Shown: one piece after another, positions 46,322 to 55,444 of the stretch
How the letters are laid out: each line of letters opens with the position of its first letter
Position numbering within the stretch: position 1 is the first letter of the stretch
Assembly: GCF_014962245.1 (NCBI RefSeq)
Contig: NZ_CP063144.1
Location: 52,582 to 116,581, forward strand
Direction: 5' to 3'
Length of the DNA stretch: 64,000 bases
DNA from: Thermosphaera aggregans
GTDB lineage: Archaea > Thermoproteota > Thermoprotei_A > Sulfolobales > Desulfurococcaceae
Notes under the pieces: generated by a model
What the model was told of the DNA's origin: nothing
The model's input: only the letters and a program-made list of their open reading frames with translations
Database searches by the model: none
Translations under genes and position numbers: made by a program

Positions 46322-47260
46322 CTACTTCAACACTGTCACATTAACTACCAATGGAATAAGCGATTTATCAATAAGCTGTGGAGTATTGTAATATAAGACC
46401 CGGACATTGCGAGTCTTGAGACGAAACTTCCACAGACTCCCTGAAACAAGGCTTAAAGCTTTTTCATCAATTGCTTTTTCACCACCCTTCACTAAGTTTA
46501 TCAAAGTGAGTGTAGCCCCAAATTGAAAGAATTTCTCATCTATACCAGCCTCTCTTAAAGGGACAGCCTTGGTAAGGGTGGTTAAATCAATCCATGTTAA
46601 ATTATCAGGTCTCCGGTTCCTGTAAAACCCTAATAACCTAGCTGGAACGTAGAAGATCGCTAGTCTTTTACTTCTGCTTACTATCAATCGATATATTGAA
46701 GGAGCGCTACCTCTCAACTCGTCTAGGGTTCCCTTCACGACTCTCTTCAACCCACCGTACCTTCTCTCGCGCTTAGTCATGTAAGCTGATGCAATCTCGT
46801 TGAAACCTGAAACAATAGGTAGGTGTATATGAAATCCTATTTTTGAAACAAACTCCACATCCTCGCCATAGTTCAGATCCCGCCAACCCCCTTTGCCGAG
46901 AGCAAGCTCTCGTCTGACTATCAATAGTCCTCCGGCGTTCACAACCTGCTTTGTTTCCACAGCATACTCTATCGCTTTATGATAAGCCGGAGTATATACC
47001 GTATCCAGATCGAACCATGCAGTCGTAGAATTTTCTGGACATTTATAGAGTGCTATGTGCCTACCTAATCCCCTAGTACATTGGTATCGATAAAGCTTAA
47101 GATTGTAATCTTTTCTGAGCTCTAAAAGCTTCTCCCATGTTCCATCAGTGGAGTAATTATCCACGATCACGATATCGTGCTCCGGCCTCCAAACAGACTC
47201 CACACTCTCCTCTATGGTGCGGACGTTATTGAATACTGTGCCGTAAATGCATATCTTCAA
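46322..47260 (-). CDS. Family 2 glycosyltransferase
   Basis: A 312-residue GT-A protein, probably cytosolic. Motifs are YGTVFNNVRTIEESVESVW (about 6-24), VDNYSTDGTWEKL (about 33-45), the metal-binding FDLDTVYTP (about 83-91), and GEDVEFVSKIG (about 129-139). The C-terminal third (about 180-312) is unlike common GT2 proteins and has no membrane span. It follows the GT4 gene by three bases and probably forms a two-gene unit with it for assembly of a surface glycan. Donor and acceptor are unknown. Confidence 0.8.
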   Translation of the reverse strand: MKICIYGTVFNNVRTIEESVESVWRPEHDIVIVDNYSTDGTWEKLLELRKDYNLKLYRYQCTRGLGRHIALYKCPENSTTAWFDLDTVYTPAYHKAIEYAVETKQVVNAGGLLIVRRELALGKGGWRDLNYGEDVEFVSKIGFHIHLPIVSGFNEIASAYMTKRERRYGGLKRVVKGTLDELRGSAPSIYRLIVSRSKRLAIFYVPARLLGFYRNRRPDNLTWIDLTTLTKAVPLREAGIDEKFFQFGATLTLINLVKGGEKAIDEKALSLVSGSLWKFRLKTRNVRVLYYNTPQLIDKSLIPLVVNVTVLK

Positions 47261-47263
47261 ATG

Positions 47264-48415
47264 TCACAGCTCCTGTGCCAGCTTCTTAACTCTCAATATG
47301 TAATTCACTTTATCTACAATGCTCTTCCTAAAATTATCATAGCTGAAAATAATGGAGTTCTCAATGCCCTTCTCCTTTAGCTTGCTATATAATTCCTTGT
47401 CATCCTCTATTGATTTTATAATGCTTGGGACCTCACTTATACTGCTATAGCCGAGCATGCTAGAAACCTTGCTAACCACGTCATACCATGCACCTCCATC
47501 CTTATACACTATTGGGATAGCACCGGCTGACATTGCTTCAACAACCGATATCCCAAAGTGTTCTGGGAAAGGCGGGTGAAGATAGAACATTGCCCTACCA
47601 AGCAGTTCCCGCAACTCATACCTAGGAATGTCTGGCTTGAACTCCACATTCGTTAATTTCAACTCATCTCTTAATGCTTTCAGTTTTTCAAAAACCGACG
47701 CAGACCCCTCAGTGGTGGTCCCTGCTATAACAAACTCGTAATCCGGTAACTGCTTAGCTACCTCAACTAGTATTTTGTCAAGGTTTTTCTCATAAACAAT
47801 CCTGCTAACGGTGACAACAAGCTTCTCTCGCTCCGCATTCCCTGAAACCTCCCTGAAATACTCAACATCCACGGGCGGGTAGATAATGTCCGGGACCACA
47901 TTATATGCCTTGTAAACCATGCACGCGGTCCAGGTAGAATTGGCTATAACCCTGCCAGTATGTTTTGACAACCTTTTAGCCACTAGGTTAACCAGTCCAT
48001 TGTAAGCATCCCATTGAAGGCCAGCCTTATCCCTGGGCGGAAGAACCGCGGGATAATGTATGTATGACACGTCCGCCCCGGAGGGAACATTGCTCTGTGT
48101 GTCAATTACGAGGTCGGCTTCACTCATAGCTTCATCTATCTCTTTTAAATAGAATAGAAGCCTGCGAAGCCTTTCAAACCTGCCGCGGGACATCTTTTCT
48201 ATGAGCTGTGCCAACCTATTCTTTCTAACACTCAACCTCGTAGGGATTACGTTGCCGTACAAGTCCTTAATCTTCTCATCTTCAACAGGAGTCTGAGTCC
48301 ATATTTCAACGTCGAAACCCTGCTCTATCAACGCCTGCGAGAGCCTAAGTACAAGCAACTCCCCGCCTCCGAGAACATTGAGAGAAGCGTGTAGAATCAA
48401 TATTTTACCGGACAC
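47264..48415 (-). CDS. Family 4 glycosyltransferase (ALG11-like)
   Basis: A 383-residue GT-B enzyme. The N-terminus ILHASLNVLGGGELLVLRLS (about 5-24) carries the glycine-rich acceptor loop. SYIHYPAV (about 118-125) and NSTWTACMVYKAY (about 157-169) are typical of ALG11-like mannosyltransferases. VVTVSRIVYEKNLDKIL (about 198-214) and the E-x7-E motif PEHFGISVVEAMSAGAIP (about 284-301) form the nucleotide-sugar site. A broken paralogue lies at 45.1-46.0 kb on the same strand. Confidence 0.88.
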   Translation of the reverse strand: MSGKILILHASLNVLGGGELLVLRLSQALIEQGFDVEIWTQTPVEDEKIKDLYGNVIPTRLSVRKNRLAQLIEKMSRGRFERLRRLLFYLKEIDEAMSEADLVIDTQSNVPSGADVSYIHYPAVLPPRDKAGLQWDAYNGLVNLVAKRLSKHTGRVIANSTWTACMVYKAYNVVPDIIYPPVDVEYFREVSGNAEREKLVVTVSRIVYEKNLDKILVEVAKQLPDYEFVIAGTTTEGSASVFEKLKALRDELKLTNVEFKPDIPRYELRELLGRAMFYLHPPFPEHFGISVVEAMSAGAIPIVYKDGGAWYDVVSKVSSMLGYSSISEVPSIIKSIEDDKELYSKLKEKGIENSIIFSYDNFRKSIVDKVNYILRVKKLAQEL

Positions 48416-48640: not shown

Positions 48641-49102
48641 TTATGTGAAGTCTTTCAGTCTTTTATTATTGCTTTTCTCCCACTCCTCTACGTCGCCTTC
48701 AACAACTCTGAAAACAGGGTTGGCTTCAATGCTACTCGGGTCTACTCCTCTAATTCTTTCAAGCCAGGCCTTGTCGCGTTTCTCAAGCTTTCTAATTAAG
48801 TGGTTGAACTCGTAAATGAGCTGTCCACGGGTTACCTCTACTGCTTCATGGAGCTCGACCACCCTGATCTTTGAAAGGCTGAACCTGTAGCCTCTCGCGC
48901 AAGCTTCCAGGTAGACCTGGTAGAGGTATGCGTCGATCAGGTCCAGGGGTTTCTCATACTTCTTAAACCTTGCAAGCTGGGGGTGGTTTCTGTAACCCTT
49001 GGTCAATCCCTGGAGAACACGTCTTGCTAGCAAGCCCTCCCTCCACAGTGCTACCAGCCCTATCCTATCCAGGTATTTCGGATGTATTGACCACAGTCTC
49101 GT
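48641..49102 (-). CDS. Pyrimidine dimer DNA glycosylase-like protein (non-standard or lost start)
   Basis: A protein of about 153 residues resembling the Pyr_excise family (T4 endonuclease V relatives), which removes UV-induced pyrimidine dimers. Conserved stretches are RLWSIHPKYLDRIGLVALWR at the N-terminus, TKGYRNHPQLARFK (about 36-49) and YLYQVYLEACARGY (about 60-73). The conserved N-terminus begins at an ACG (49102-49100), where homologues have ATG. No ATG, GTG or TTG lies between it and the upstream in-frame TGA. A TTG at 49033 would remove 23 conserved residues. The gene either uses ACG or has lost its start. Confidence 0.65.
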   Translation of the reverse strand, partial: TRLWSIHPKYLDRIGLVALWREGLLARRVLQGLTKGYRNHPQLARFKKYEKPLDLIDAYLYQVYLEACARGYRFSLSKIRVVELHEAVEVTRGQLIYEFNHLIRKLEKRDKAWLERIRGVDPSSIEANPVFRVVEGDVEEWEKSNNKRLKDFT

Positions 49103-49235: not shown

Positions 49236-50639
49236 CTAGTATCCTCCAACCTCCTCGTAAGCTTCCTCAACAGCCTCTTTAGCCTTCTCCTCCTCAAGCC
49301 TCTCCTTCTGCTTTATGAGGAACCTTCTCCTATCCAGCACGCCCCAAGCGTAGATCGCGATGGCTGGGAGTGCTAGTAGGAGGAGTAGCAGGGCATCCCC
49401 TGCCGCTGGTGTAACGGGGAGAGTGTTGGACAGCTCTATCGGCTTGGGCATGCCGGGAGAGATCTCGGGCATGAACCTGTTCACGTTCCAAGCAGCCAGC
49501 GCTAGCATCAGCCAGTTTGTCGCGAAGTTTATCAAGCCCTGCCTGCTCGGCCCCAGCATCAGCCCAGGTATCCTCCTCTTCGTCAACGGCGGGAATAGGA
49601 CCGAGCCCATGAAGCCCAGCTGGTCTTCCAGGACATGCATCGCGTGTCCCAGCATTGACGCTACTGCGAGGTAGAACCAGTTAGCGTAGCCTAGTGCAAG
49701 GGTTGCAAGCCCTATTAACCCACCGATCACCACGCTCGCTGTCAAGCTGTGGGAGAAGCCCCTGTGCCACGGTATGAACACCTCCTCGACAACATCCCCC
49801 ACTTTCTCATAACCTATCTCGGGGCCTGAGAAAGCATCTATCACTGTTGGCCTAGGGTAGACCTTTCTGAAAGCATGCTTCGTCTCAGCAACCCCTATCC
49901 TCCTGTACTCAGGGGGCTCTGTCCCCTCGAGGGGTAAGCCTCCAGTGGAGACCAGCGGGCCCATGTGAACGATTATCCTCCTGTTCTTGGAGTCGTACTG
50001 GATTAGGAACCTCCTGTAGAAGTCCCCCGGCATCCTTATATTGTGTATTTTAACGGTTACCATCCTCCCGGTCTCGTAAGCCTCGTCAATAGCTCTTGCA
50101 ACAGCGTCTGCAACATACTGCGGGTGTGGGGCGTCCGCAACATTCCAGTAGACTGAGCCACCCTCGTCCACCTCCAGGTAGCCCGGTATCCTCACCCTCC
50201 TGCCCGATGCTGCCAGCTCCTTAATGCTTGACCCGAGCATTCTCCTAAGCTTTTCGTAATCCCCGTTCCTGGCGACCACTACCACCGACCCGGTTTCATC
50301 CGCTAGCTTAAACCTCGCGTAACCCTCCCTCTCCTCCAGCACATCCTCGATCCTCCCCTCAAGATAGTAAAGCCTCCATCTCAAGCCCTGGGAGAGCTCG
50401 CTAACCCTTATCCTCCTGGGGGAGAGTTTTCTCAACGGATCCCTTGGGGCGGGATCCACGAGGTAGTCCACTCTCCACAGGAACTTCTTGAACTTGAAGT
50501 CCAGGAAGTCTGGCAGGTATGCTGAAACCCCTGCTAGAACCGGCCACATGACTCCTTTGACAAGGTCTGAGAGCAGGGGCGGGAAGAACATTGCCATTGC
50601 TAGACCGGACAAGTAGTGCGTCCACCCTCTCATCCTCAA
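49236..50639 (-). CDS. DUF457/YdjM-type membrane protein with an OB-like insertion
   Basis: A 467-residue membrane protein related to predicted membrane-bound metal-dependent hydrolases. Candidate metal ligands are His8 (GWTHYL), Asp44 (YLPDF), HRGFSHS (292-298) and GHAMHVLED (331-339). Hydrophobic segments lie at about 12-42, 300-335, 370-385 and 413-435. Between the two halves, at about 85-170, an OB-like beta unit is inserted (YYLEGRIEDV, VVVARNGD, RVRIPGYLEVDEGGSVYW). A charged coiled tail ends the protein. Its ATG overlaps the TctA-like gene by four bases; it is last in a three-gene operon. Confidence 0.75.
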   Translation of the reverse strand: MRMRGWTHYLSGLAMAMFFPPLLSDLVKGVMWPVLAGVSAYLPDFLDFKFKKFLWRVDYLVDPAPRDPLRKLSPRRIRVSELSQGLRWRLYYLEGRIEDVLEEREGYARFKLADETGSVVVVARNGDYEKLRRMLGSSIKELAASGRRVRIPGYLEVDEGGSVYWNVADAPHPQYVADAVARAIDEAYETGRMVTVKIHNIRMPGDFYRRFLIQYDSKNRRIIVHMGPLVSTGGLPLEGTEPPEYRRIGVAETKHAFRKVYPRPTVIDAFSGPEIGYEKVGDVVEEVFIPWHRGFSHSLTASVVIGGLIGLATLALGYANWFYLAVASMLGHAMHVLEDQLGFMGSVLFPPLTKRRIPGLMLGPSRQGLINFATNWLMLALAAWNVNRFMPEISPGMPKPIELSNTLPVTPAAGDALLLLLLALPAIAIYAWGVLDRRRFLIKQKERLEEEKAKEAVEEAYEEVGGY

Positions 50640-51970
50640 CCACCTAGCCCTAGCAGTTCAAGGAAGAAGCCGGCGAACCCCATGGTGTTTGCGAGAACGG
50701 GGAGGATTAGGGAGCCCAGGCAGTAGCTCAGCCTCGTGTTGAAGACCATTGCAGCGAAGCCAACGCTTGTCGCCGCGAGCATTAAAACCAGGCCCACGGG
50801 CCCTGTCAAATAGTATACGAGGCTCACGAGGAACACTAGGGTGGCAGCGGAAATGTAGACGTAGCTCACCCTGGTTAGAAGGCGTGCCACGGCTTTCGAC
50901 AAGTATAGGGTGACAACGAAGGAGACGGCTGCTGCTAGGATGATGAAGGCTGCTCCAACATAGAACTCAGCCCATGTCTTAGGCGTGTAAACCCCTCCTA
51001 CAAGCCATGCAACCGAGCCCCTGGTTATCCTCATGGTTGGGTGGAACAGGAAGAAGAGAGCACCAGTGTAGTATACTGTTCTAGCAGCTCCCTGGCTGAT
51101 CAGGAAGGTGTCGTCGCCCCTGCTACTCGCCATGTGCCCCCCAACCAGCGCCCCCATTCCCCCGGTTATTATTGGGAAGAACGCAGCTATCCCTCCCCCT
51201 ATTATCCCGGATGCACTGCCGTTTACGACCGCGCCTGGAGCCGTCTCCACAACATCCCTCGTATCCTGCCTGGGAATGCTCCTCCTGGAGATAAGGTTTC
51301 TCAGAACCCATGGGAAGCCGAAGAAGCCTATGAACAAGGGTGTTAGCCTAGCGTACGCTGCTTCAATCCTTAATAAACCCGAGTATGAAGCTATGAAGCC
51401 CAGTATGCCTGATGCGAAGAACACCAACACCCCGCCTAACACCTGCCTCCAGGCAAGCCACAGCTTCTCCCTAGGCGTCCTCCCATGGTCGGCTTCCTTA
51501 GGGTACTCGCTCATGAACATGAAGACAACTATTGCCAGCAGGATGAACCAGTAGTATGGGCTGAAGAGATTATATATCACGGGCATTGCGTAAACGCCGA
51601 TTGTTGCCATGAACACTGCGAGGAAAACCCCCCCTGTCAACGCGCCGATCAGGTAGAGCAGTACAGCCCTGTGACCCCTCCCCGCTAGCAGATACCTCTG
51701 CGACGGGAAGAGCATAAGCATCATTGACTCGTCTGAAACACTGAGATATGTTGAAGCAATGGAGCTGGCGAACGAGAACCCTACTACAGCTCCGAGGGCG
51801 AAGTATGGGAGAGCGTAGATGTTGGAGGTTATGAACCCCGGGGCCAGGGCGAACACAAGAACCAGGAGGTTGAAGATGTGGAGCCCCGGGATCCACGATA
51901 GCAGTAAGCCCATGAGGGTGCCTGTTAAACCCCATGTTAAAACATCGACAGGGTTGACTAAAGCCTCCAT
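50636..51970 (-). CDS. TctA-family membrane permease
   Basis: A 444-residue polytopic protein of about ten to twelve spans, related to the large permease of tripartite tricarboxylate transporters (COG1784 in archaea). Family signatures are GLLLSWIPGLHIFNLLVLVF-type sequence in TM1 (about 21-40), GFSFASSIASTYLSVSDE (about 64-81) and the glycine-rich GSASGIIGGGIAAFFPIITGG in parts (about 250-270). No TctB- or TctC-like partner is encoded nearby, so it is unlikely to be an ordinary three-part importer. It lies between two proteins with OB-like units. Confidence 0.8.
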   Translation of the reverse strand: MEALVNPVDVLTWGLTGTLMGLLLSWIPGLHIFNLLVLVFALAPGFITSNIYALPYFALGAVVGFSFASSIASTYLSVSDESMMLMLFPSQRYLLAGRGHRAVLLYLIGALTGGVFLAVFMATIGVYAMPVIYNLFSPYYWFILLAIVVFMFMSEYPKEADHGRTPREKLWLAWRQVLGGVLVFFASGILGFIASYSGLLRIEAAYARLTPLFIGFFGFPWVLRNLISRRSIPRQDTRDVVETAPGAVVNGSASGIIGGGIAAFFPIITGGMGALVGGHMASSRGDDTFLISQGAARTVYYTGALFFLFHPTMRITRGSVAWLVGGVYTPKTWAEFYVGAAFIILAAAVSFVVTLYLSKAVARLLTRVSYVYISAATLVFLVSLVYYLTGPVGLVLMLAATSVGFAAMVFNTRLSYCLGSLILPVLANTMGFAGFFLELLGLGG

Positions 51971-51980
51971 AACCCTGCAC

Positions 51981-54029
51981 CTACCCTAGAACCGTGAACC
52001 CGTTCTTAGAGATCACCACGATCTCCTGCTTGCTACCGTAGACATCCCTGTACCCTGCAACCTTGACCAGTGATCCGTTAGGCGGTGGCGAGGACATTCC
52101 GAGATCGCTGACGGTTGAAGAAGGTATGAACACTGTTATAACAGCGCCTGTTGAATCAGTTATGTTGATCTCCCAGTTGTTTCCTGATAAAACCCTAGAG
52201 CTCACCACTGTGGCGTTGAGAACCATCAGGGGCCTGCCTAAAGGCTGCGCCAGGGCTTCCTGAACAGTAACTGTTAACGGAGCCCTGAGCTCAACCACTT
52301 CACCGTACACGTACTCTACAAGGCTGGCTGACTTAACAGTGCCGTTGATCCTTATGAGCGATTTCCAACCCACTATGGCCGGATCCAGGAAGGATATAAG
52401 CTGCGTCCTGCTCATGGAAACGTTGACCGCGAAGCCTTCATCGCTCGACCTCACCTCGACATAGTATATTCTCTGGGAGCTGTCGTAGCGTATCGCGTAG
52501 AAGAGTCCTGTGAACGAGACGTTGGAGCCAACGTAGCCTGGCACACTCCTAATGTCTATTTCGATGAAGGCAGGGGGTTGCGGAGGCGGCGGTGGCGGAG
52601 CTGTCTCAACGGTAATCCCGTTCACAGTGTAGACAACGATCTCGTCCGTGCTACCGTAGACATGCCTGTAGCCGGCGACCGAGATGTAAGTGCCCTTCGC
52701 CGGGATTTCAAACCCCATCGACTTAGCCACTGTCGACGGGACGAACACCAGTATGTTGTAGCCTGATGGATCGCTCACGTAAATCCTCCAGCTACCACCG
52801 CTTGTCGTGCTTGATGATGAGACGGTTACGTTTCTCAGAACTATGATCCTACCCCTCTCCTGCGAGAGGGCTTCCTCAACACTACTGGTTTCAAACGGGG
52901 GTGCAACCTCCACCGGGTCTGCCGCATACGCGACCATGTACGTTGAATTGACCACGTTAACAGTTAAGTTGAACACTGTGCCGGAGCCCACGCTCCACGG
53001 GTCAAGCGCTGTTGCCATGAGAGCTTTAGGCATCATAATGTCTCCCGTAATACCCTGGCCCTCCACATCCTCGAAGACAAGCCTGCACGGGTCGTCGAAA
53101 GCCTCGCAGTAGACTCCTAGGAATCTTGCCTGCGTCCTAACCGTCTGCCCCTCGTAGAAGGCTGTGTTGAACACCAGGTCTCCGAAGCTCACTGTTTCAG
53201 CCACGGGTAGCACTCCTATGTTGACATCCTCGAGCTCGCGGACAACGATCTCTGGCGAAGTACCCCTATAGTAGTAGACCACTCCGCAGACGTCCACGGG
53301 GACTCCCCCGGCTGAAATAGCTGATAAAACCGGGGTAGCGTCATCCCCGTAGACATGGTTTATTATTGTTGGTATCAGAACCGTCACAGCACCCCTGGAT
53401 GTTGCGACGTCGAAGAGCAGTCCCGATGAAACATTACGGGGGCTTTTAACCAAGCCCTGCACGCAAACATACGAGTACTCGGCGATTTCTTCCAGCGAGT
53501 CCACGTAAACCTTTCCATCACCGCTCCCGGGTCTCTCAAGTATTTCAACACCCCTCAGCTCCTGGAGGTAGGCGTAAGCGTAATCCTCCCTCACCCTCAG
53601 CTGGACGAGAAGCCTCACCCTGTCCCCTATGAAAGGTATTTTCCGAGCCTTGATCATATCGGATGCGAGAGGGTCGTAAGCGTAGACTGATAGGCTCACG
53701 GGCGTTGAGTTATCGTTAACGGTTACCGTAATCCTCAGCTTCCCTCCTGAGTAATCCACGCGAGGAGGCTCCACGACAACGCCTTCAACGTAGAATGTGG
53801 CGTAGTTCATTAACACGTTGCCCTGGACATCGCTGATCCTTACAACCGGGATGGGCGAGTACCGTGCCGCGGCGAAAACACCTACAACGCTCGCGAGCAC
53901 TAGGGCTACGGCTATTATCTTGAGGAAGCCCACGTTGTAGAGCCTTCGCTCCTCGGTTTCGGGATAGTAAAGGTACTTCTCGATCTCCGAATACTCGCGG
54001 GAGTCAGACGTAGAAGCCACCTCGATCAT
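51981..54029 (-). CDS. Membrane-anchored protein with six tandem OB-like modules
   Basis: A 682-residue protein with a single N-terminal membrane span (about 34-56) and a large, probably extracytoplasmic part. Six beta-rich modules of about 90-100 residues can be traced: 62-165, 178-272, 278-375, 383-475, 488-582 and 588-680. Modules 4 and 6 are clear duplicates: VEEALSQERGR with VAGYRHVYGSTDEIVV, and VQEALAQPLGR with VAGYRDVYGSKQEIVV. A proline run links modules 4 and 5 (about 477-487). NxS/T sites are frequent in the outer part. It opens the operon with the TctA-like and DUF457 genes; its function is unknown. Confidence 0.75.
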   Translation of the reverse strand: MIEVASTSDSREYSEIEKYLYYPETEERRLYNVGFLKIIAVALVLASVVGVFAAARYSPIPVVRISDVQGNVLMNYATFYVEGVVVEPPRVDYSGGKLRITVTVNDNSTPVSLSVYAYDPLASDMIKARKIPFIGDRVRLLVQLRVREDYAYAYLQELRGVEILERPGSGDGKVYVDSLEEIAEYSYVCVQGLVKSPRNVSSGLLFDVATSRGAVTVLIPTIINHVYGDDATPVLSAISAGGVPVDVCGVVYYYRGTSPEIVVRELEDVNIGVLPVAETVSFGDLVFNTAFYEGQTVRTQARFLGVYCEAFDDPCRLVFEDVEGQGITGDIMMPKALMATALDPWSVGSGTVFNLTVNVVNSTYMVAYAADPVEVAPPFETSSVEEALSQERGRIIVLRNVTVSSSSTTSGGSWRIYVSDPSGYNILVFVPSTVAKSMGFEIPAKGTYISVAGYRHVYGSTDEIVVYTVNGITVETAPPPPPPQPPAFIEIDIRSVPGYVGSNVSFTGLFYAIRYDSSQRIYYVEVRSSDEGFAVNVSMSRTQLISFLDPAIVGWKSLIRINGTVKSASLVEYVYGEVVELRAPLTVTVQEALAQPLGRPLMVLNATVVSSRVLSGNNWEINITDSTGAVITVFIPSSTVSDLGMSSPPPNGSLVKVAGYRDVYGSKQEIVVISKNGFTVLG

Positions 54030-54125
54030 GCAGGGTAGTGTATTATCTTATTTCTCCCCAAACCTTAAAATATTTAAAATAACCTGTTCAGTAGAGTAGG
54101 TGAACACTACCTGTCTAAACCCGGG

Positions 54126-54751: not shown

Positions 54752-55444
54752 CTACAACCTATCCCTGGTGAATAACAATAGTATCGCTGAAACAACTACT
54801 ATCACAGGTGCAGCCACCAGTAGAGCAGGCTCCGGGATGGGGACAGGCCCTCCACTGCCCGGTTTCACGGAGACGTAATCACATCTCGCAGTGTCGTTGC
54901 TAATGTAGACTGTGAAGCTTATTTCCCCGGCGAGCGGGGTTAAGTAGTTCTTGCCGACCACAACCTCTAATGTGTCGTTTAATACTGTTTTAGCATAAAC
55001 ACTAGCTGATACCTCAGCACTACCCGCCTCCTCCCAATCCCATGTTGAGCCACCACCTACATACTTGTAGAGCTTAACAACCGGGCTCGACACGGTGGTG
55101 CCATCGATATATGCTTCCAAAAGGTAGTCTGCCCCGATACCTGTCCAGTGTTCAAGACCTGTTGAAGAATCATTATCGCTATCTATTAACACTCCGTAGA
55201 AGTATGTAGCTTCAGAGGGGAGGGGGATATTGCCGGTAACGGTTATGTTAAAGCCTACGTGCGTTACGTTAAACCCGTATCCGACAGCTAATATGTCCGT
55301 GAATCCAAGTGCACACTTACCGTCCCCGAGGCTGTCGCTGAAATCCCTGGTGTAATCCCAGCTTGCAATAACAGTGATCGATGCGGTTAGAATCAACGCC
55401 AGAGTTACAGCTGTTAGCACTTTGGCTTTCCGCAAGCATAACAC
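54752..55444 (-). CDS. Secreted surface protein with a PEP-like C-terminal anchor
   Basis: A 230-residue exported protein. An N-terminal signal peptide (about 5-28, VLTAVTLALILTASITVIAS) precedes a beta-rich domain containing LIDSDNDSSTGLEHW (about 87-101), a calcium-loop-like acidic segment, and several NxS/T sites. The C-terminus has Pro-Ile-Pro-Glu-Pro (202-206), a hydrophobic span (207-225) and a short basic tail RDRL. That tripartite pattern resembles sorting tails cut by exosortase/archaeosortase. The ligand or partner is unknown. Confidence 0.7.
   Translation of the reverse strand: MLCLRKAKVLTAVTLALILTASITVIASWDYTRDFSDSLGDGKCALGFTDILAVGYGFNVTHVGFNITVTGNIPLPSEATYFYGVLIDSDNDSSTGLEHWTGIGADYLLEAYIDGTTVSSPVVKLYKYVGGGSTWDWEEAGSAEVSASVYAKTVLNDTLEVVVGKNYLTPLAGEISFTVYISNDTARCDYVSVKPGSGGPVPIPEPALLVAAPVIVVVSAILLLFTRDRL

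Follow-up and report, generated by a model that had tools for sequence, protein, structure and literature searches.

How DNA crosses the membrane of competent archaea is an open question, and homologues of ComEC have not been identified in these organisms (PMC10133366). Because of this absence the authors of that work propose that a TctA homologue is the DNA transporter. The question is raised again by three genes at positions 49236-54029 of a 64,000-nucleotide stretch (the window) of the 1.305-Mb genome of the heat-loving archaeon Thermosphaera aggregans (contig NZ_CP063144.1). They are tightly packed on the minus strand and encode, in this order, a single-span protein with six oligonucleotide/oligosaccharide-binding (OB) modules (gene 1), a permease of the TctA family (gene 2), and a membrane protein of the YdjM/DUF457 family (gene 3). 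A preliminary description of the locus had suggested an undescribed envelope complex that binds a polymer outside the cell and processes or moves it, and had considered carboxylate uptake unlikely. We judge this general view to be right and go one step further, since homology and context make it rather probable that the cassette serves to import DNA in natural transformation.

The pairing of an OB-fold protein with a TctA permease is in itself known, and has been recognized as a transformation factor in methanogens since 2023. In Methanococcus maripaludis both MMJJ_13020, which codes for a single-helix OB-fold protein, and the adjacent MMJJ_13030, which codes for a TctA-like protein, were found in transformation screens; in-frame deletion of either gene abolishes natural transformation, complementation restores it, and in Methanoculleus thermophilus a TctA homologue is likewise essential for natural transformation (PMC10133366). 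As in this pair, a single-span OB protein adjoins a TctA permease in the window without TctB or TctC, but the OB protein of the window has six OB modules, a YdjM protein with its own OB domain is added, and the host belongs to another archaeal phylum. A YdjM partner is not mentioned in the available part of that report. The earlier suggestion of an undescribed system therefore does not hold for the OB-TctA pair, whereas the three-part cassette with YdjM appears to be new. As judged from the open-licence PubMed Central (PMC) literature searched, which also sets the scope of our further statements on novelty, the same appears to be true of the form with six OB modules, of YdjM as a subunit, of the presence in Thermoproteota and Lokiarchaeota, and of the nuclease-like partners and the block deletion described below.

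A Pfam search with the gene 1 protein of the window gave zero matches; its relatives from the same cassette match PF01336 (OB-fold nucleic acid binding domain) far over the cut-off, with E=2e-23, 9e-18, and 1.5e-19. The AlphaFold2 (AF2) model of the protein, built from a 10-sequence alignment with a mean predicted local distance difference test score (pLDDT) of 85.8, shows a single membrane helix followed by exactly six OB-type beta barrels (Table 1), as the preliminary description had proposed. When this model was compared with the PDB using Foldseek, the best matches were nearly all DNA-binding tandem-OB proteins: the HIN-200 protein p204, human CST, RADX, RPA, POT1, and telomere end-binding proteins. 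Positions 155-217 of the gene 1 family profile, near OB module 2, also touch the OB domain of the small subunit of archaeal DNA polymerase II (E=0.0018). In distant cassette members the relatives of gene 1 start with a zinc ribbon. One genome, G488 (L128:2-4295), carries three OB proteins in succession, at least two of them with an N-terminal zinc ribbon, ahead of TctA and YdjM.

Gene 3 matches PF04307 with E=3e-11 and 43.6 bits, compared with a curated cut-off of 29, and its AF2 model (pLDDT 87.5) contains an OB barrel at residues 91-167, so that predicted OB folds are present in both genes 1 and 3; the match of gene 3 to the OB profile PF01336 (E=0.002) is below the threshold. The OB domain dominated the fold search, the nearest structures being RPA, the MCM N-terminal domain, and the OB folds of aminoacyl-tRNA synthetases. 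The DUF457 assignment with its own OB insertion is thereby borne out, and the His/Asp motifs suggested as a candidate metal site are conserved, seven residues (H8, D44, D47, H292, H297, H335, and D339) being invariant in 17 of 17 aligned sequences. Generic YdjM proteins (approximately 150 amino acids) have the transmembrane core and the LPD, HR..(S/T)H, and H..xD motifs in common with gene 3 and align with it only outside residues 190-290. Compared with them, the cassette YdjM has about 100 extra conserved residues, an OB domain in most Thermoproteota forms, and a link to TctA. It looks like a subunit that has not previously been tied to DNA uptake. DUF457 is a suspected relative of the P1-nuclease/phospholipase C enzymes.

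The two OB-containing proteins appear to work on opposite sides of the membrane. The ectodomain of gene 1 contains 11 NxS/T sequons against 3.4 expected from shuffling (p=0.0006), and 64 were counted over 10 gene 1 relatives against 28 expected. The window YdjM has zero such sequons, and no enrichment is seen in the YdjM family. The model of the window YdjM has six membrane segments, for which the positive-charge bias predicts that the two termini and the large insert are cytoplasmic. From these sequon counts and the charge bias we infer that gene 1 has a cytosolic N-terminus and projects its six OB modules outside the cell, and that the OB insertion of YdjM probably faces the cell interior, with the His/Asp motifs on or close to the cytoplasmic face and not outside, where the preliminary description had placed the binding of the polymer.

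Gene 2 covers the whole PF01970 profile (E=4.8e-44), and neither TctB nor TctC is found among the adjacent genes scanned at the window locus, which agrees with the earlier reading of a TctA-family permease lacking both partners. A sequence search of gene 2 against solved structures returned no homologue. In cassette relatives it is OB and YdjM genes, not TctB or TctC, that lie beside TctA, and in a TctA tree (made by a quick method, with some long branches and a midpoint root) the cassette TctA sequences, including that of the WOR-3 bacterium mentioned below, form one clade with a Shimodaira-Hasegawa-like approximate likelihood ratio test (SH-aLRT) support of 100.

All three genes are present in 4 of the 117 genomes of the order (G000, G077, G067, and G101), and in the phylum sample the cassette TctA occurs in 8 of 398 genomes and the YdjM subunit in the identical eight, where neither these nor the following distribution counts are corrected for the relatedness of the genomes. 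A scan of named genomes adds Thermofilaceae, Geoarchaeota, two Lokiarchaeota, Methanomassiliicoccales, another euryarchaeal genome, and a WOR-3 bacterium, and the co-occurrence asked about in the preliminary description is thus found in other archaeal genomes. The order OB, TctA, YdjM is kept in the relatives, and YdjM adjoins TctA in the cassette loci examined except in WOR-3, where the OB gene is directly upstream of TctA in the same orientation and this pair and YdjM are on separate contigs. A cassette-type YdjM was found in 4 of 141 Thermoplasmatota genomes, with TctA adjoining in all four, and in the phylum sample of the Lokiarchaeota genome G450 this TctA is present in 1 of 148 genomes, G450 itself alone. 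Most Thermoproteota forms of YdjM have the OB insertion, which is missing in distant cassette members. The distribution of the cassette is patchy. The ratios of nonsynonymous to synonymous substitution rates (dN/dS) compared with the sister species G077 are 0.12, 0.043, and 0.078 for genes 1, 2, and 3, respectively, showing that the cassette genes are under strong purifying selection. The sister genome G071 contains no cassette stretch matching the window-locus DNA. In G115, a congener of G067, the flanks are intact, but TctA and almost the whole of YdjM are missing and the OB gene has lost one half, so that the cassette has been lost as a block, with an OB-gene remnant left between the intact flanks (L023:7561-8094 compared with L021:6926-10311).

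The association of OB and TctA genes extends beyond the three-gene cassette. At 46 of 69 Thermoplasmatota TctA loci the gene immediately ahead of TctA, in the same orientation, encodes an OB protein (gaps of -92 to +76 bp), and at none is such a gene downstream. The OB profile behind this count was derived from TctA neighbours, PF01336 independently matches 22 of the 46 upstream partners, and some of the loci without an OB match stop at contig edges; elsewhere in these loci the profile gives few matches, within OB clusters. OB-fold and TctA genes are also carried by two cyanobacterial plasmids (L175, NZ_CP060823.1; L174, NZ_CP112877.1), again with the OB gene directly upstream of TctA and in the same orientation. 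The cyanobacterial pair was found in a plasmid search with a Thermoplasmatota TctA query; the TctA and YdjM of the window, used as tblastn queries against plasmids, gave no match. On the Cylindrospermopsis plasmid a nuclease-related (NERD) gene comes after the OB-TctA genes. Among Lokiarchaeota and several Thermoplasmatota, OB-TctA adjoins genes for large secreted proteins with lamin-tail domains and two PLDc_2 domains (LTD-PLD proteins), which are candidate extracellular nucleases for DNA processing, and in G101 a PLD protein is encoded approximately 4.3 kb upstream of the OB gene. An LTD-PLD gene lies beside TctA at loci L142-L146, L148, L151, L088, L089, and L033, and TctA is OB-linked at most of these. 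Since the matches of the OB model are DNA-binding proteins, and since secreted PLD and nuclease-related genes lie beside OB-TctA elsewhere, the evidence favours DNA over glycan as the polymer; of the two possibilities named in the preliminary description, nucleic acid is the preferred one.

For the proposed DNA importer we picture the following mechanism. Tethered to the membrane by its one helix and exposed on the outside, the six-OB protein would capture and hold DNA, which judging from the fold would probably be single-stranded. The TctA-like permease would form the membrane path, as suggested by the knock-outs in M. maripaludis, and YdjM at the cytoplasmic face would take over the strand through its own OB domain. 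More speculatively, YdjM might cleave or process the strand by means of a His/Asp metal centre. That YdjM is a strand-processing hydrolase is to us a possibility well short of a probability, and we are equally tentative in viewing the cassette as an archaeal multi-protein counterpart of ComEC, in which the receptor would be a tandem-OB protein, the channel would derive from TctA, and strand processing would fall to YdjM/DUF457 as a metallohydrolase embedded in the membrane. The likeness to ComEC/Rec2 is one of logic only (OB domain, polytopic channel, metal-site hydrolase), whereas the window has separate polypeptides and a TctA-type channel, and Pfam showed no Competence domain in gene 2 and no beta-lactamase nuclease domain in any of the three window proteins. 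Matches to DUF4131, which we take to be the OB domain of ComEC, occur below the threshold in related OB proteins (best E from about 1e-5 to 1e-3), and there is none in the window protein. DNA import has likewise been proposed for the Ced/Ted systems of related hyperthermophilic archaea, which have a VirB4-type ATPase, a VirB6-type channel, and pilins (PMC9905601). The cassette contains none of these components: its three proteins show no domain of a VirB4-type ATPase or a VirB6-type channel, the rest of the genome not having been searched for Ced.

A number of points weigh against a DNA importer. The cassette has no gene for an ATPase, the relatives of TctA carry the annotation of carboxylate transporters, and OB partners are missing for some TctA genes of archaea. 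The putative kinship with MMJJ_13020/13030 is drawn from Pfam family, architecture, and gene order, and DNA uptake by T. aggregans has not been reported in the literature searched. The YdjM core had no solved relative in the sequence search, and its link to DNA is a putative one. Finally, neither the window genome nor its sister G077 encodes a PLDc_2 protein, and the LTD-PLD link may be lineage-specific; because of this absence the nuclease-like partner is not universal, and we have discarded the LTD-PLD nuclease as a universal partner of the cassette.

The alternative that survives best is nucleic-acid scavenging, where environmental DNA or RNA would be bound and degraded outside the cell and TctA would import nucleotides, nucleobases, or phosphate as nutrition instead of whole strands. 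Such a function would fit the LTD-PLD and NERD neighbours, the role of TctA relatives as small-anion carriers, and the fact that some no-OB Thermoplasmatota TctA genes adjoin phosphoribosyltransferases. The latter, however, fall in a separate no-OB clade of 19 (several of them by phosphoribosyltransferases), mostly apart from the OB-linked TctA in the tree described above, the window genome is without a PLDc_2 protein, and in M. maripaludis the pair is needed for plasmid transformation, i.e. for intact DNA (PMC10133366). Scavenging therefore appears improbable to us. At loci L131, L134, L135, L137, and L138, in five Thermoplasmatota genomes, a TctA of the no-OB clade lies directly downstream of phosphoribosyltransferase genes, and such TctA proteins are possibly nucleobase or orotate carriers.

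Less weight still is given to an importer of carboxylates or other small anions, in which the OB protein would stand in for TctC as the binding protein and YdjM would be an accessory. It would agree with the PF01970 membership of gene 2 and with earlier comparative work in which archaeal TctA (arCOG04469) is described as specific to euryarchaea, mostly without partners, and possibly able to act by itself as a carboxylate carrier (PMC5898192), but it leaves the DNA-binding matches of the six OB modules, the nuclease-like neighbours, the missing TctB and TctC, and the transformation phenotype of the M. maripaludis pair (PMC10133366) unaccounted for. A classical TctABC importer, with which the window shares the TctA subunit, was rejected because TctB and TctC are missing from the adjacent genes scanned and TctA has OB partners. 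Processing of envelope glycans or lipids, with OB modules that bind sugars, as OB folds can, and a YdjM that hydrolyses glycolipid intermediates in the membrane, is again slightly less credible: it is suggested by the glycosyltransferase genes just downstream of the cassette (window 46322-48415), but the fold matches are nucleic-acid binders, and for most relatives of the cassette no such genes are recognized among the neighbours listed. As the neighbours differ between lineages, the argument from nearby glycosyltransferases was rejected. The direction of transport cannot be read from the sequence and the DNA exchange systems of hyperthermophilic archaea do have their origin in type IV secretion machines (PMC9905601), but export, release, or cell-to-cell transfer of DNA or RNA is very unlikely, as the only tested relatives serve uptake (PMC10133366).

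The coordinates of all features are collected in Table 1. The three leftward reading frames of the preliminary description were recovered at the same positions; genes 1 and 2 are spaced by 10 bp on the same strand, and genes 2 and 3 touch. The listed open reading frame (ORF) of gene 3 has 467 amino acids and a TTG start at 50639, which is the basis of all gene 3 residue numbers given here, but the alternative ATG at 50633 is the likelier start because the relatives begin at MRGW.

Table 1 Features of the OB-TctA-YdjM cassette and its surroundings (window coordinates).
Feature	Coordinates	Strand	Basis
Gene 1, single-span six-OB protein, 682 amino acids	51981..54029	-	ORF, AF2 model, Foldseek, PF01336 matches of relatives, sequons
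Transmembrane helix of gene 1, residues 33-57	53859..53933	-	AF2 helix 33-57; hydropathy peak 29-60
OB module 1, residues 78-165	53535..53798	-	Model secondary structure
OB module 2, residues 187-271	53217..53471	-	Model secondary structure
OB module 3, residues 296-381	52887..53144	-	Model secondary structure
OB module 4, residues 395-475	52605..52847	-	Model secondary structure
OB module 5, residues 503-580	52290..52523	-	Model secondary structure
OB module 6, residues 600-680	51990..52232	-	Model secondary structure
Gene 2, TctA-family permease, 444 amino acids, proposed translocation channel	50636..51970	-	PF01970, cassette clade, dN/dS
Gene 3, OB-containing membrane protein of the YdjM/DUF457 family, putative hydrolase subunit	49236..50633	-	PF04307, AF2 model, TctA adjacency
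OB insertion of gene 3, residues 91-167	50139..50369	-	Model; fold matches; alignment; missing in short cassette forms
Conserved soluble region of gene 3 specific to the cassette, residues 190-290	49770..50072	-	Alignment; missing in generic YdjM relatives examined
Motif LPDFLDF (Asp44, Asp47), candidate metal ligands	50496..50516	-	Invariant in 17/17
Motif HRGFSHS (His292, His297), candidate metal ligands	49746..49766	-	Both His invariant in 17/17; common to generic YdjM
Motif HVLED (His335, Asp339), candidate metal ligands	49623..49637	-	His and Asp invariant in 17/17
TATA-like sequence TTTAAATA, possible cassette promoter (candidate, by eye)	54071..54078	-	About 42 nt upstream of gene 1

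Two neighbouring genes should be mentioned. Just downstream of the cassette, at window 48641-49033, is an ORF resembling a pyrimidine dimer DNA glycosylase (PF03013, E=2.4e-9), which is likewise found downstream in G077. At window 54752-55444 a secreted protein without a Pfam match is encoded, whose end, with a short Pro/Glu motif, a hydrophobic helix, and basic residues, by eye resembles a sorting tail of the archaeosortase type; the archaeosortase gene ArtE is also among the genes of the M. maripaludis transformation screen (PMC10133366).

With the cassette, a genetic result on two genes becomes a conserved gene system with a wider spread than the euryarchaeal distribution of arCOG04469 (PMC5898192). 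To the known pair it adds a candidate third subunit with invariant candidate metal ligands, support for the receptor from its DNA-binding type of fold, nuclease-like partners in other lineages, and a natural block deletion. If the more tentative view of a ComEC counterpart with YdjM as the strand-processing subunit is true, DUF457 would be a family with a DNA-translocation enzyme among its members, and the channel for DNA would have evolved from a carrier of the TctA type.

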